The notes beneath the pieces are model-generated. The model made no database searches. It was not told the origin of the DNA and saw only the letters and a list, made by a program, of their open reading frames with translations. Below, in pieces: positions 5,615-11,174 of a stretch of 52,256 nucleotides of DNA (its first letter is position 1; each line of letters opens with the position of its first letter). The translations under genes and the position numbers were made by a program. Source of the DNA: an uncultured Chloracidobacterium sp. (GTDB lineage: Bacteria > Acidobacteriota > Blastocatellia > Chloracidobacteriales > Chloracidobacteriaceae); the NCBI GenBank assembly GCA_937966115.1, contig CALCKX010000024.1:1-52256 (forward strand), read 5' to 3'.

Positions 5615-6832
5615 ATGACCAATGCCGAACGAACCGTTGTCTGTTTAGCGAGCTATTTCAAAGGCGTTGAATTCCTCCGCGAAGTCAAGCGTCAGGGCTC
5701 CCGCGTCGTCCTTGTGACGAAAGAGAAGTTTCGCCACGAGGACTGGCCGTTTGAAAGTCTCGACGAGTTTATTCCGCTGCCGAACGACGCGTCGCCGGAG
5801 CTGTTCGTTTATACCGTGGCGCAGTTGGCGCGCCCGCGCAAGCTGCACGCCGTCGTGGCGCTCGAAGAGTTCGACGTGCTGACGGCCGCGCTCATCCGCG
5901 AGCACTTGCGCTTGCCGGGCATGGGCAGCACGACGGCGCGGCGCTTCCGCGACAAGCTCGCGATGCGCATCGAGGCCGAGGAAGCCGGCGTGCGCGTCCC
6001 GGAGTTCGTGCATGTGCTCAACTACCAGGACCTGGAAACGTACATGCAGCGCGTCCCGCCGCCCTGGGTCATGAAGCCTCGGACGGACGTGTCGGCTATT
6101 GGCATCAAGAAGCTATATGACAGCGAGCAGGTCTGGCGGACCATTGATTATCTCGACGCCCGCGACCGACTGAGCGAGCGGTCGAGCAACTACGTCCTGG
6201 AGCGGTTTGTCGCCGGCGACGTGTATCATGTGGATTCGCTGGTCGAAAACGGCGAGGTCATCTTTGGCGGCGTGAATCGGTACGGGCGGCCGCCGATGAG
6301 CGTCGCCCACGACGGCGGCGTGTTCACGACCCAAACGCTGCCTTATGACGCGCCGGATCGGGCGCGCCTGCTCGACATCAACCGCAAGCTCATCGCCGGG
6401 CTGAAAATGCGCCGCGGCGCCACGCACGCCGAATTCATCAAGAGCGCCGAGCAGGGCGAGTTTTATTTCTTGGAAATTGCCGGGCGCGTCGGGGGGGCTT
6501 ACATCGCGGAAGCGCTCGAAGCGGCGAGCGGCGTCAACATCTGGGCCGAGTGGGCCAAAATCGAGCTTGGGCGCGGGGAAGTTCCGTATGTCTTGCCGCC
6601 GACGCGCCAGGAATACGGCGGCGTAGCGCTGTGTCTAGCGCGTCAGGAGTACCCTGACACATCGGCGTTTACCGATCCGGAAATCACCCATCGCATCAAG
6701 AAGCGTTATCACATCGGGCTGGTGGTGCGCTCAACGAGTCATGAGCGAGTGACAGAGCTATTGCAGGACTACGCCGCTCGCTTCGAGCGCGAGCACTGCG
6801 CCATCATCCCGCCGCTGGAACGACCGGAGTGA
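5615..6832 (+). CDS. ATP-grasp domain protein, possibly part of the RiPP island
   Basis: A 405-residue enzyme of the biotin-carboxylase/carbamoyl-phosphate-synthase-like ATP-grasp type, which activates a carboxylate as acyl phosphate for ligation. It has a pre-ATP-grasp domain (ERTVVCLASYFKGVEFL), the VMKPR strand with the ATP-binding Lys (near residue 150) and a late metal-binding motif EIAGRVGGAYI. I chose the ATG at 5615: an in-frame GTG at 5501 would add 38 residues of unlikely sequence ahead of the first beta strand. Its stop overlaps a GTG that may start the next gene (GTGA), so it could be co-translated with the B2-like protease. The substrate is unknown. It could serve the RiPP pathway, or be an unrelated amino-acid ligase. 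Confidence 0.8.
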   Translation: MTNAERTVVCLASYFKGVEFLREVKRQGSRVVLVTKEKFRHEDWPFESLDEFIPLPNDASPELFVYTVAQLARPRKLHAVVALEEFDVLTAALIREHLRLPGMGSTTARRFRDKLAMRIEAEEAGVRVPEFVHVLNYQDLETYMQRVPPPWVMKPRTDVSAIGIKKLYDSEQVWRTIDYLDARDRLSERSSNYVLERFVAGDVYHVDSLVENGEVIFGGVNRYGRPPMSVAHDGGVFTTQTLPYDAPDRARLLDINRKLIAGLKMRRGATHAEFIKSAEQGEFYFLEIAGRVGGAYIAEALEAASGVNIWAEWAKIELGRGEVPYVLPPTRQEYGGVALCLARQEYPDTSAFTDPEITHRIKKRYHIGLVVRSTSHERVTELLQDYAARFEREHCAIIPPLERPE

Positions 6833-7425
6833 CGGGCGCGCCGACTGCCGCGGGCGGGGCGCGCCAGGAAACAACTTGCGCCCAAGCTTCTGGATCGCCT
6901 ATGCTTTTGCGCAAGGTCACAAGACAACTACCCCGCTCGCCCAATGGTGGATGCTCGTTGGAGATGCAGTTCGCTCAGTTTCATCCAGCCACCTGGCGTC
7001 GGCATCCGCCGAAGGCGGTCGCGCGCTGCCTTTTTTGGGCCTGCTGGCTGTGGCCGCGCGTTCGGTGGGGGACATTGCCGGCGGCGCTCCACTATCTGGA
7101 CCGTCAGCCGAATCGGCGCTTGGGACGCGCCCGCGCGACGCTAACCCCAGAGGCCGTAGCCCAAACGGCGGGCGCGATTGCGCGGCGCTTGCCGCGCCTG
7201 GGCGTTGGGGAGTGTTTATTACGCTCGCTGGTGATTTACGCCGTGTTGCGCCGCCAGCGGCAGATGCGGATTGAGTTTGTGCTGGGCGCCGGGCCGCTTG
7301 ATGAAACTGGACGACCCGCCCTACACTGCTGGATTGAAGCGAATGGGCGACCGCTGCTCGAGGCGGCCGATCCTCGGCAGCGCTTTCGCGCGCTGCTCCG
7401 TCACCGGGCGCCGGAGGCGTCCTGA
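6829..7425 (+). CDS. Lasso-peptide B2-like transglutaminase-fold leader protease
   Basis: The C-terminal half matches the Transglut_core3 / lasso B2 family, cysteine proteases that cut the leader from lasso precursors. The triad is visible: Cys129 in GVGECLLRSL, His166 in ALHCWIE and Asp181 in EAAD. A Trp/Arg-rich stretch lies around residues 55-80. The start is uncertain. The GTG at 6829 overlaps the ATP-grasp stop, but the first 24 residues look unconserved; alternatives are ATG 6901, TTG 6958 and ATG 6964. A weak TTGCGC-18-TATGCT element at 6877-6906 would favour a downstream start. It sits directly before the precursor gene, consistent with leader removal. Confidence 0.82.
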   Translation: MTGAPTAAGGARQETTCAQASGSPMLLRKVTRQLPRSPNGGCSLEMQFAQFHPATWRRHPPKAVARCLFWACWLWPRVRWGTLPAALHYLDRQPNRRLGRARATLTPEAVAQTAGAIARRLPRLGVGECLLRSLVIYAVLRRQRQMRIEFVLGAGPLDETGRPALHCWIEANGRPLLEAADPRQRFRALLRHRAPEAS

Positions 7426-7466
7426 TCCTAAATATCTAACCTCAATCTTTTCAAGGAGCGAAATTC

Positions 7467-7622
7467 ATGACCACATCTGAAATCAAGCTGGTCGTGGCGG
7501 ACTCGGCAATCGTTAAGAAGACTTTCATCGAACCCGAACTCAAGGAATTCGACCAACTGGAAAAGCAAATCCAAGGGCTGCGCGTCTTGGAAGCTTTTAC
7601 GGCGAGCTTTATCGCGCCGTAG
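7467..7622 (+). CDS. Candidate RiPP precursor peptide with lasso-type leader motif
   Basis: A 51-codon ORF with the textbook ribosome site AAGGAG at 7453-7458, 8 bases before ATG. The AT-rich upstream gap contrasts with the GC-rich surroundings. The leader contains KKTFIEPELKEF (residues 17-28), an F-x2-P-x-L variant of the lasso recognition motif Y-x2-P-x-L-x3-G-x5-T. On the same spacing the usual Gly is Asp29 and the usual penultimate Thr is Ile35, so the core would begin at Gly37 and read GLRVLEAFTASFIAP. The peptide has no Cys. Glu42 (core position 6) is the only acidic residue in that core; lasso rings normally close at positions 7-9. If cleavage fell before Ile35, Glu42 would be position 8. 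Precursor identity is inferred from motif, size and neighbours. Confidence 0.78.
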   Translation: MTTSEIKLVVADSAIVKKTFIEPELKEFDQLEKQIQGLRVLEAFTASFIAP

Positions 7623-7645
7623 CCCGCCGTCGCGCGAATTGCCAT

Positions 7646-7687
7646 CGCGGCTGAGCGGGCTGGGCGGGTCCTGCCCGCTCAGCCGCG
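7646..7687 (+). terminator. Perfect 15-bp hairpin between precursor and kinase genes
   Basis: CGCGGCTGAGCGGGC at 7646-7660 pairs perfectly with GCCCGCTCAGCCGCG at 7673-7687 across a 12-base loop. It begins 23 bases after the precursor stop and ends 12 bases before the kinase ATG. No T-run follows. This suggests partial termination, 3'-end stabilisation of the precursor mRNA, or reduced translation of the kinase. Such an element would keep precursor levels above those of the enzymes. Confidence 0.7.
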
Positions 7688-7699
7688 AAGTCTCGCTAG

Positions 7700-8695
7700 A
7701 TGGATGCCGCCACCAATCTTTCCTTTGGCGTCTCAAGGCAGGAAGCGCGCCGGCTCGAGCCGGTCATTCTCACCTGCCGTTACCTTGGCTTGTCCGAAGT
7801 CGCTCCAGAAGCGGCCGATATCATTCTCGTCGAAAGCGCGCCGACCGCGCCGCTTGGTCCTGGCGAGCCGTGGCTCAGTTGGAAAGAGCTGACGATTTAT
7901 CGCCAGGAAAGTCGGCTGACATTCGCTTACGGCGCGTGGCGAGTCGCCATCGACGTGGCGCGCCGCCAGGTAACGCCGCTGGCGCTCCCGTCGGATGGCG
8001 ACCCGTTCGTCTCGTACGCTTGCCATTCATACTTGCGGCTCGCGCTGTTATTCCTGCTGCGCCGCCTTGGATGGTTCGAGCTGCATGGCGGCGCGTGCGT
8101 CCGGGACGGGCAGGCATATGTCTTCGTCGGCGCCTCCGGCAGCGGAAAGACAAGCGCCATCCTCGGGTTGCTGGAGGCCGGCTGGCGTTATGTTTCTGAC
8201 GACGCCCTGCTCATCAAGCGCATCGGCGAAGGGGACGCCGGCGCGGGCGACGCCATCTGCGCCCGCGCCGGGCGGGCGCTGTTCTCCGTGACGATGGACG
8301 GGCTTCGGCGGTTTCCGCGCTTGCAGCCGCATGCCGAGCCGCGCCTGCAATCCGCCGAGAAGCGGGTGGTGGACCCGCGCGCCGTTTGGCCCGACCGCTT
8401 CGAGCCGGTGGCGAAGCCGGCGTTTTTGTTCTTCTGCCAGCTTTGCGACGCCGAGCGGACGCAGGTCTCGCCGCTTCCGCCCGCTGACGCCCTGGCCCGC
8501 TTGATGATGAGCACGCCCTGGCTGGCGCTCGACCGCGAGACGGCGGAAGCGCACCTGGCGACATACCGTCGGCTGGCCGAATCGTGCTATAACTTCGCCT
8601 TGCTTGCGGGACGAGACCTTTTACGCTCTTCATCGGCACTGGCGGCGCGTCTCGACGCATCCCATCTCCGTCGGCTGCATTGCGCTTATGCCTGA
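7700..8695 (+). CDS. HprK-related (HPr kinase-like) P-loop kinase of RiPP type
   Basis: A 331-residue protein. The region around the P-loop G144-ASGSGKT-151, the preceding FELHGGACV and the following SDDALLI (Asp167-Asp168) match the HprK-related kinases found in lasso clusters rather than true HPr kinase. In paeninodin-type clusters such kinases phosphorylate the precursor, typically at a C-terminal Ser. The peptide here ends in Pro but has Thr45 and Ser47 near its end. The N-terminal part is poorly conserved. No clear ribosome site precedes the ATG, which lies 12 bases after the hairpin. The 3' end overlaps the radical SAM gene by 8 bases. Its substrate is inferred. Confidence 0.82.
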   Translation: MDAATNLSFGVSRQEARRLEPVILTCRYLGLSEVAPEAADIILVESAPTAPLGPGEPWLSWKELTIYRQESRLTFAYGAWRVAIDVARRQVTPLALPSDGDPFVSYACHSYLRLALLFLLRRLGWFELHGGACVRDGQAYVFVGASGSGKTSAILGLLEAGWRYVSDDALLIKRIGEGDAGAGDAICARAGRALFSVTMDGLRRFPRLQPHAEPRLQSAEKRVVDPRAVWPDRFEPVAKPAFLFFCQLCDAERTQVSPLPPADALARLMMSTPWLALDRETAEAHLATYRRLAESCYNFALLAGRDLLRSSSALAARLDASHLRRLHCAYA

Positions 8696-9728
8696 GACCG
8701 CCTTCCCTGACCTGCTGCCCGTCAAACGCCTGACCGTTGGGCTGACCAATCTGTGCAATCTCGATTGCGACTACTGTCTCCGGGTGGCGGAGACTGAGCA
8801 TCTGGACTTCGACCTCCTGAGCGATGTCTTGGCGCAGGCGCGCGACTATGGCGTGCTGGCCGTGACCTACACGGGCGGCGAGGCGATCCTCCACCCGCGG
8901 TTCCAGGATGTCATTCGCCGGACGGCGGCGCTTGGGATGTCCTACTCGTTCGTCACCAACGGCTGGCACTTTCCCAAAGCCGCGCCGATTTTGACCGAGA
9001 CAAGAAGCGCGCTCTACCGAGTGTTTTTCAGCATGGATGGCGCGACGGAAGAGGCGCACGACGCCGTCCGCGGGAAAGGCTCATTCCGCAAAATCATGGC
9101 GGCAATGGCGCTGTGCCGCTTTCATGGCTTGCCGTTTGGCGTCAACCTCGTCGTCACCCGGCGCAGCGTCGCCGCCATCGAGGCCCTCGCGGTGCTGGCG
9201 GCGCGACTTGGCGCGGATGTCGTGCAGCTCATGCACTTGCTGCCGACATCGGAGGAATACGATCAGAAGCTATCCTTGACCCCCGATGAGCGGCGCGCCG
9301 CCGAGCGCGAGGCGCTGGCGGTGGACGCGATTCTCAAGATTCGCGTTCAGTTCGCCGCGGGCAGCTCGACGCCCCAGCCGGGCGCGCCCTGCGTTTCGCT
9401 TTCCGGCGAGACGGTCAACCTCGACTGTCGCGGACGCCTCACGCTGTGCTGCACGCTCTCGGACTACCGCAACGCCGTGGGCGAGGGCGACATCGTGGCC
9501 GATATGCGGACGACCTCCTTTCAAGAAGCCTGCGAGCGCGTCCATCGCCTCGCGCTGGCGCAGCGCGAGCGCCGGGACGCCGCGCTGGCAGCCGGTCGCC
9601 CGGAGGCTGAGTTTCCCTGTCACTTCTGCATCAGGACATTTGACAAAGTCGCTTGGCAAGCGCCCGCGCTTGTGCAGCTTGGTCGGGCAACCGGGTCACG
9701 CCTGCTTTCAGCGAGCGCGCCCGTATGA
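8688..9728 (+). CDS. Radical SAM enzyme with C-terminal auxiliary-cluster cysteines
   Basis: The 346-residue protein has the radical SAM motif Cys23-x3-Cys27-x2-Cys30 (CNLDCDYC), the GGE motif at 63-65 that contacts the SAM amino group, and a TIM-barrel-like core. The C-terminal third carries Cys235, 247, 254, 255, 282, 311 and 314, with CRGRLTLCC resembling the GxLxxC start of SPASM/twitch domains and a closing CHFC. At least one extra Fe-S cluster is likely. I chose ATG 8688, which overlaps the kinase stop; an in-frame TTG at 8604 would add 28 residues within the kinase gene. It overlaps the PqqD gene by 4 bases (ATGA), tying it to peptide modification. The reaction is unknown; thioether formation is excluded if the Cys-free peptide is the substrate. 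Confidence 0.9.
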   Translation: MPETAFPDLLPVKRLTVGLTNLCNLDCDYCLRVAETEHLDFDLLSDVLAQARDYGVLAVTYTGGEAILHPRFQDVIRRTAALGMSYSFVTNGWHFPKAAPILTETRSALYRVFFSMDGATEEAHDAVRGKGSFRKIMAAMALCRFHGLPFGVNLVVTRRSVAAIEALAVLAARLGADVVQLMHLLPTSEEYDQKLSLTPDERRAAEREALAVDAILKIRVQFAAGSSTPQPGAPCVSLSGETVNLDCRGRLTLCCTLSDYRNAVGEGDIVADMRTTSFQEACERVHRLALAQRERRDAALAAGRPEAEFPCHFCIRTFDKVAWQAPALVQLGRATGSRLLSASAPV

Positions 9729-9988
9729 CAAGCTTTCGCCCCCATCCATCAGTGGTTTCCACCGACGTCGAAGACGCTATGGTGCTGCTCCACCTCGATA
9801 CGAAGCGTTACTTCACGCTCAACAGCACCGGCGCGGCGATTTGGAAACGCCTTTCGCAGGGCAAGGCGGAGGATGAGATTGTGTCCGCCTTAGCTGAAGA
9901 ATATGACGCCGATCCGAGCCGCCTTGCCGCCAGCGTCCGGCGGCTGCTTGAACAGCTTGAAAAAGCGGCGCTGATCGAGCCAGCCTGA
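9725..9988 (+). CDS. PqqD-like RiPP recognition element protein
   Basis: An 87-residue stand-alone PqqD-family protein. These small winged-helix proteins bind the leader peptide and present it to the protease, cyclase or radical SAM enzyme; lasso B1 is the same fold. Signature: MVLLHLDTKRYFTLNSTG followed by AAIWKRL, then EDEIVSAL and a C-terminal helix ending ALIEPA. The ATG at 9725 overlaps the radical SAM stop (ATGA). An in-frame upstream start at 9653 would lie inside that gene and is unlikely. The Y-x2-P-x-L leader motif in the precursor is the expected ligand. Confidence 0.9.
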   Translation: MTSFRPHPSVVSTDVEDAMVLLHLDTKRYFTLNSTGAAIWKRLSQGKAEDEIVSALAEEYDADPSRLAASVRRLLEQLEKAALIEPA

Positions 9989-10055
9989 AGGACTGAGCGA
10001 GTGTGAGTCAGCTTGGCCGAAATGGCTCGCAGTCAGGCCGGCGGATGGACGGCCC

Positions 10056-11174
10056 ATGCCGACGCGCTACCCCGACATCATGCCGCATCGAGACAACGGC
10101 GTCGTGGCCGAACGCCAGCTCGAGCGCTTCATGGCTTGCCTGCCGGAAGACGAAGCCGCGCTGGCGGCCGGCGCGGCGGAAGTCGAGGACTGGTCGGCGC
10201 TTCTGAGAAGCGCTGTCGATCACGGGCTGGAAGATTATCTGTTTCGGCGACTGATCCGCATCGGCGCGGGTCTGCCCGATGCAACGGTCGCTCGCTTTCG
10301 GCAAATTCAGTCTCGCAAGGCTGCCTGGACGCTGCACCTCATCGCGCAGCTCGACCGAATCCTGGACGCCCTGGCGGCGGCTGACATCCCGGCCGTCGCG
10401 CTCAAGGGCCCGCTCCTTGGCGAGCGACTCTATGGCGCGGATGGCTTTCGCTCTTCGAGCGATCTCGATGTGCTCGTCGCGTATGCGCAGCTCCGGCCGG
10501 CGCTTGCGGCGCTCGCGCCGCTCGGCTATCGCGCGGACGAGATTGCGCTGGCCCGCGCCCTGGCCGGCGACCACAATGTCGCGCTCGACAGCGCGTCGCC
10601 CCCGCTGGAGCTGCATTTTCATCTCTTTCGCCGCTTTGGCGTCACGCTCCGCTCGGATGACTTTCTGGCGCGCGCCGCGCCTTACCAAACCCGGCGCGGA
10701 CGCCTCGTCCAGACGCTGGCTCCGGAAGATGAATTTTTGTTCCTGTGCGTGCACGCCGCAGCGCACAGCTTCGCCCGGCTGGCCTGGCTGTTTGATCTGA
10801 AACTGCTGCTTGGCAAGCAGCCCGCGCTCGATTGGGACGCCCTGCTGCAACGCGCGCGAGACTGGCGCGTGCTCACGTCAGTGGCGTTTGCCTGCGCGCT
10901 GCTGCGGCAACGGCTGGGCGTGGAAACGCCGCTGCTGGCGCGGCTCACAGGGCGGCAACGCCAATGGCTAGGCGTCAATGAGCGGCTCTTTGACCAGGCC
11001 ATGCGCCGCTACAATCGGCCGCGGAATTCGTTCGGGGCGAAGCTCGGCTTTTTCCTGGCCTCGCAGCTTTATCAATCCAGCCTTCATGACCGGTGGCGCA
11101 GCCGCGCACGCTTTCTGGGGCTGACGGCGCTCCGAACCCTACAGGGGCGGAGCTTGCCGCCGGGCGACGCCTAA
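10056..11174 (+). CDS. NTP_transf_5 family nucleotidyltransferase of RiPP-cluster type
   Basis: A 372-residue protein of the nucleotidyltransferase family often found with HprK-like kinases and PqqD proteins. ALKGPLL holds Lys117, and SSSDLDVLV gives the metal-binding Asp136/Asp138 pair of the polymerase-beta fold. The C-terminal part has HAAAHSF and LAWLFDLKLLL, typical of the family. In pseudomycoidin-type clusters a member acts on the phosphorylated lasso peptide (from memory), so peptide tailoring is plausible here. It starts 67 bases after the PqqD gene; a second in-frame ATG is at 10080. It is the last gene of the island. Confidence 0.82.
   Translation: MPTRYPDIMPHRDNGVVAERQLERFMACLPEDEAALAAGAAEVEDWSALLRSAVDHGLEDYLFRRLIRIGAGLPDATVARFRQIQSRKAAWTLHLIAQLDRILDALAAADIPAVALKGPLLGERLYGADGFRSSSDLDVLVAYAQLRPALAALAPLGYRADEIALARALAGDHNVALDSASPPLELHFHLFRRFGVTLRSDDFLARAAPYQTRRGRLVQTLAPEDEFLFLCVHAAAHSFARLAWLFDLKLLLGKQPALDWDALLQRARDWRVLTSVAFACALLRQRLGVETPLLARLTGRQRQWLGVNERLFDQAMRRYNRPRNSFGAKLGFFLASQLYQSSLHDRWRSRARFLGLTALRTLQGRSLPPGDA

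Follow-up and report, generated by a model that had tools for sequence, protein, structure and literature searches.

A six-gene island in the genome of an uncultured Chloracidobacterium species most likely encodes a RiPP pathway in which a front end of the lasso or linear polyphosphorylated peptide (LPP) type is combined with core modification by a radical SAM enzyme, phosphate tailoring and release by a B2 protease, and in which no macrolactam is formed. A probability of roughly 0.8 is assigned to this reading. The island has the appearance of a genuine peptide family that has so far not been characterised, as the same gene set was detected in two phyla that are only distantly related. Somewhat more likely than not, the loci form a distinct RiPP family of Acidobacteriota and anammox Planctomycetota, whose lasso RRE and B2 protease would serve radical SAM cross-linking or oxidation of a short core with Phe, together with phosphate or nucleotide tailoring, with no macrolactam being made.

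Gene content and limits of the island

The analysed window is a stretch of 52,256 nucleotides from a 2.8-Mb assembly that is 85% complete, and the island lies between an ATP-grasp gene and mnmG. All six genes are encoded on the plus strand in the order B2-type protease, precursor, HprK-like kinase, radical SAM enzyme, lasso-type PqqD and NTP_transf_5 protein. Profile matches and coordinates confirmed this order and strand, which had been proposed by a sequence-only reading, and the overlaps of 4-8 bases that it described among the central genes amount to 8 bases between the kinase and radical SAM genes and 4 bases between the radical SAM and PqqD genes. A promoter and terminator scan yielded nothing usable. 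The limits of the island could be set by the loss of a block in one genome of the same genus (G005), in which 4.29 kb are gone and 120 bp are found in their stead; the missing stretch starts shortly after the ATP-grasp gene and extends into the final part of the NTP_transf_5 gene. The flanks on the two sides of the lost block match those of G001 by 96.1% and 92.7%, and the scar still contains the last codons of the NTP_transf_5 gene. The ATP-grasp gene was considered as an island member and rejected, as it is retained by G005 and by every one of the 10 family genomes.

Both the B1-type RRE and the B2 protease of lasso pathways are present. The first gene (6829..7425) encodes a transglutaminase-like leader protease that matches PF13471 (7e-11) and scores 40.8 bits against the NCBIfam model lasso_biosyn_B2 (NF033537, cut-off 33). 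Residues Cys105, His142 and Glu154, numbered from the ATG at 6901, are invariant in 15 sequences. The true start of this protein is uncertain, with a frame that is open from a GTG at 6829 and a first ATG at 6901; the earlier assignment of the start to the GTG found no support, since the N-termini of relatives do not align there. A Foldseek search of the protease model against the PDB returned no significant match. The PqqD-like RRE (9725..9988; PF05402, 5e-22) scores 75.8 bits against lasso_PqqD (NF033530, cut-off 70), and its closest solved relatives are lasso B1 proteins, with TbiB1 (5v1u) as the best PDB sequence match. The kinase (7700..8695) shows weak matches to HprK_C and HprK_rel_A, which stay below the curated HMM cut-offs, and membership in HPr-rel-A was rejected on this score. 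Its residues H129, K150, D167 and D168 are conserved and are the counterpart of the His-Lys-Asp-Asp set named for lasso kinases. The last gene (10056..11174) encodes a nucleotidyltransferase of the NTP_transf_5 type (PF14907, 1e-45) with conserved KGP and DLD motifs.

The precursor family and its occurrence

The precursor gene (7467..7622, plus strand) encodes 51 amino acids and is preceded by a Shine-Dalgarno-like AAGGAG (7453..7458, plus strand). Its conservation extends across the genus and to every relative that has a precursor, and a small open reading frame with the motif K-x-F-x-E-P is located upstream of the kinase at every locus where this region is present; the related genomes retain the small ORF that the sequence-only reading had singled out. 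In the genus and in a sister genus, synonymous changes far outnumber non-synonymous ones, for example 12 versus 2, and the precursor is under purifying selection (dN << dS). The leader of lasso precursors follows the register Tyr(-17), Pro(-14), Leu(-12) and Thr(-2), and Ile(-2) has been shown for BsfA (PMC10368454). This YxxPxL register, with Phe replacing Tyr, is carried as F(-17)xEP(-14)x[LIVM](-12) by all 30 precursors examined. The anammox precursors from the survey of Brocadia relatives were retrieved with a pattern that included the register and give it no independent support. With the Pro of FxEP set as -14, position -2 is Thr in 21 and Ile in 9 of the 30 precursors, without exception. 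Among 5688 further small frames at these loci, none has the motif K.[FY].EP.[LIVM].

In the window, this register predicts a leader of residues 1-36 (7467..7574) with F20(-17), P23(-14), L25(-12) and I35(-2), followed by a putative core of 15 amino acids, GLRVLEAFTASFIAP (7575..7619). A first guess, with a cut after LEAFT-A near the C-terminus, was dropped, as the Thr/Ile(-2) counted from the leader Pro lies much earlier and fits all lineages. The predicted cores have 8-15 residues and differ in length and sequence among lineages; all contain Phe, Tyr is not common to all, and none of the 30 precursors contains Cys. In most Blastocatellia precursors (L054-L075), the leader motif is not preceded by an ATG, and translation apparently starts at TTG. 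Two precursors occur in tandem at one locus (L063 6299-6849), and another (L170 1958-10698) has two precursors that are each near a kinase, which suggests a duplicated cluster. In the anammox precursors (L074 6780-6968, L167, L169-L171), two copies of the leader motif directly follow one another (FAEPKLTFIEPKL).

The radical SAM gene and the precursor are present in the same order in five of the six same-genus relatives, with G005 as the exception. Beyond the genus, the same gene set was found in anammox bacteria and at more than 20 further loci of Blastocatellia; in a scan of species genomes, orthologous loci turned up in Candidatus Brocadia pituitae as well as in numerous Blastocatellia. The kinase, radical SAM, PqqD and NTP_transf_5 genes recur, save at loci cut by contig ends, and B2 was identified by HMM at 21 of 29 loci, often on the opposite strand. 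All loci were collected via the radical SAM enzyme, whose presence in every locus is by construction. The enzyme itself is patchy and was detected in 8 of 396 genomes of a phylum-wide sample and in 10 of 59 Brocadia relatives; most of the latter that were inspected have kinase, PqqD and B2, and seven have a precursor, while one Brocadiales locus (L168) contains only the radical SAM and PqqD genes. The island is considered more than a chance assembly because two phyla share the gene set and the precursor and because the precursor is under purifying selection and its leader motif is confined to these frames within the loci. No precursor was found on viral contigs. A member of another genus of the same family (G007) has two island-type precursors (L048 5248-5400; L049 1433-1582, minus strand), one of them beside B2, and its assembly of 1090 contigs yielded neither a kinase nor a radical SAM orthologue. 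A secreted FecR_C-like protein is encoded next to the Blastocatellia islands (for the flanks, see L054 5812-6705 and 11085-12362), some of which also have an HTTM/DCC1-like membrane protein at their flank.

The radical SAM enzyme and the cyclase question

The radical SAM enzyme (8688..9728, plus strand; PF04055, 6e-17) contains a CxxxCxxC motif and five C-terminal cysteines (235, 254, 255, 311 and 314), all conserved in 29 orthologues; the latter are as would be expected for one auxiliary iron-sulfur cluster. Its AlphaFold model (pLDDT 84) was matched by Foldseek to BlsE, SkfB, SuiB and PqqE, three of which are peptide-modifying enzymes. None of the HMMs of known radical SAM families scored above its cut-off for the window enzyme, and viral Foldseek and PHROGs searches gave generic radical SAM matches only. 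With the CxxxCxxC motif, auxiliary-cluster cysteines, RRE and precursor, the broad features of radical SAM RiPP pathways are all present. Assignment to the sactipeptides or ranthipeptides was rejected, as the 30 precursors offer no core Cys for thioethers.

An Asn-synthetase-like cyclase gene was not found near any island tested, in agreement with the earlier proposal that this gene is missing. The Asn_synthase matches in the window's own genome were rejected as cyclase candidates, as they correspond to QueC and MnmA. The absence from this genome is not informative, because the assembly is incomplete and also lacks a flank of the lasso cluster of the genus. Blastocatellia genomes contain many Asn-synthetase-like genes, so that no conclusion on cyclase absence can be drawn there, and the anammox bacteria provide the stronger test. 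The lasso cyclase model NF033535 has no match in the complete Brocadia genome G028, and the Asn_synthase matches in G028 and G440, both single-contig anammox genomes with an island, are short and score 20.9-25.9 bits; neither genome has a cyclase-like gene. G001-G006 do encode an Asn-synthetase-like cyclase, which is part of a full and separate lasso cluster. This cluster (L149 6196-10639, L150, L151, L152 and L154) comprises PqqD, B2, cyclase, HprK-like kinase and one or two precursors with Asp9, a residue present in five genuine lasso precursors from the genus.

The composition of the predicted cores bears on ring closure as well. Asp or Glu is absent from positions 7-9 in 23 of 30 cores, including that of the window, which has Glu6 only, and is present in the other 7; eight of the 30 have no acidic residue of any kind. 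Given the predicted cut site, lasso closure is therefore excluded for those cores. The radical SAM gene sits where a cyclase gene would be expected, and the earlier proposal that it replaces the cyclase is an inference, both for the history of the cluster and for a role in closing a ring.

Relation to known systems and proposed pathway

A cyclase-free kit of kinase, RRE and NTP transferase is already known from the LPP pathways described by Popov et al. 2026 and reported as restricted to Bacillota (PMC13381572). The island resembles these pathways in its discrete RRE, HprK-like kinase, NTP transferase, aromatic-xxP leader motif and lack of a cyclase, and LPP clusters can likewise share a genome with lasso clusters. 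In contrast to the island, LPP clusters use an SpI-like peptidase and an MsbA-like transporter, and their core set lacks B2 and a radical SAM enzyme, while the LppA core has 45 residues (PMC13381572); the island has B2 and neither an SpI nor a transporter gene. The clusters of phosphorylated lasso peptides (paeninodin, pseudomycoidin and Bsf; PMC9266682, PMC10368454) share B1, B2 and the HprK-like kinase with the island, that of pseudomycoidin also the nucleotidyltransferase, and their leaders have P(-14), a hydrophobic residue at -12 and Thr/Ile at -2. The island differs from them by its radical SAM enzyme, the missing cyclase, the mostly missing acid at core positions 7-9 and a core without C-terminal Ser. 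RRE-Finder had recorded about 300 lasso-type RREs beside radical SAM genes without the requisite lasso genes; these were reported as false positives of the model, without the gene set or the precursor family of the island (PMC7470986). The gene set of the island was not found described in the open-access literature. What is new is the addition of B2 and a radical SAM enzyme to the kinase, RRE and NTP transferase kit, the short, Cys-free and Phe-containing cores, this precursor family and its occurrence in these phyla. The earlier proposal of a separate RiPP class is largely supported in its lasso-type parts for leader recognition and cleavage and in the lack of a linked cyclase, but less is new than it claimed, since the cyclase-free kit as such and the pairing of lasso-type RREs with radical SAM genes had been reported before. 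The SynChlorMet cassette contains two radical SAM genes. It also brings together HprK-like, PqqD-like and radical SAM proteins (NCBIfam ScmC, ScmD, ScmE and ScmF), and membership of the island was rejected at scores of 15, 31, 69 and 69 bits against cut-offs of 125, 100, 400 and 400, respectively.

Given the LPP precedent for the same kit without a cyclase and the conserved catalytic residues of lasso kinases, phosphorylation could be the main reaction and the radical SAM enzyme a minor tailoring factor of a linear phosphopeptide pathway. This is a possible but unlikely reading: a B2 protease is present instead of an SpI peptidase, and the cores of 8-15 residues are short next to the 45 of LppA; the presence of a radical SAM gene at every locus follows from the construction of the locus set and carries no independent weight. 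That the island is a lasso cluster served by a cyclase encoded elsewhere, with the radical SAM enzyme tailoring a lasso peptide, is improbable. The lasso-type leader and proteases and the cyclase of G001-G006 speak for it, yet that cyclase belongs with a separate set of precursors, PqqD, B2 and kinase, and the unlinked but co-conserved cyclase that would have pointed this way is not seen: G005 retained the cyclase and lost the island, and G028 and G440 have the island without a cyclase-like gene. For the anammox bacteria this reading is largely refuted, and the eight cores without any acidic residue count against it further.

About equally improbable is a role of the peptide as starting material of a small redox cofactor, comparable to that of PqqA in PQQ and of MftA in mycofactocin biosynthesis. 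The combination of PqqD and a radical SAM enzyme is the layout of these pathways, the enzyme scores near MftC and PqqE in HMM searches and PqqE is among its structural matches, but the island lacks PqqB/C/F or Mft partners, its kinase and NTP transferase point to tailoring, and the cores vary among lineages without a shared Tyr. Hardly any weight is given to the view that the island acts on another protein and that the small ORF does not encode its substrate. The gene is short and many relatives use a TTG start codon; against this stand its position, leader motif and register, which are conserved in all 30 cases, purifying selection and its loss together with the enzymes in G005.

For the favoured RiPP pathway with radical SAM core modification, homology and the leader register suggest that FIEPEL in the leader is the binding site of the PqqD-like RRE, which in this way would bring the leader to the enzymes. 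By analogy with PsmK/PsmN and LppK, the HprK-like kinase would phosphorylate a core Ser or Thr (Thr9 or Ser11 in the window), and the core phosphate may then be decorated by the NTP_transf_5 protein. The radical SAM enzyme might abstract a core hydrogen and install an oxidative or cross-linking modification, tentatively at or next to Phe, a target that is suggested only because every core has Phe and none has Cys. From the -14/-2 register, B2 is predicted to cut after residue 36 as the last step and to release GLRVLEAFTASFIAP, and no lasso macrolactam would be made.

The analysis defines a precursor family, with a predicted site of cleavage and cores predicted to be short (8-15 residues), that is suited to co-expression. 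The island also explains part of the cyclase-less lasso-RRE matches that genome-mining tools count as false positives. If the proposed pathway is true, the lasso leader system of RRE and B2 would be a portable module that can serve quite different core chemistry, here that of a radical SAM enzyme.
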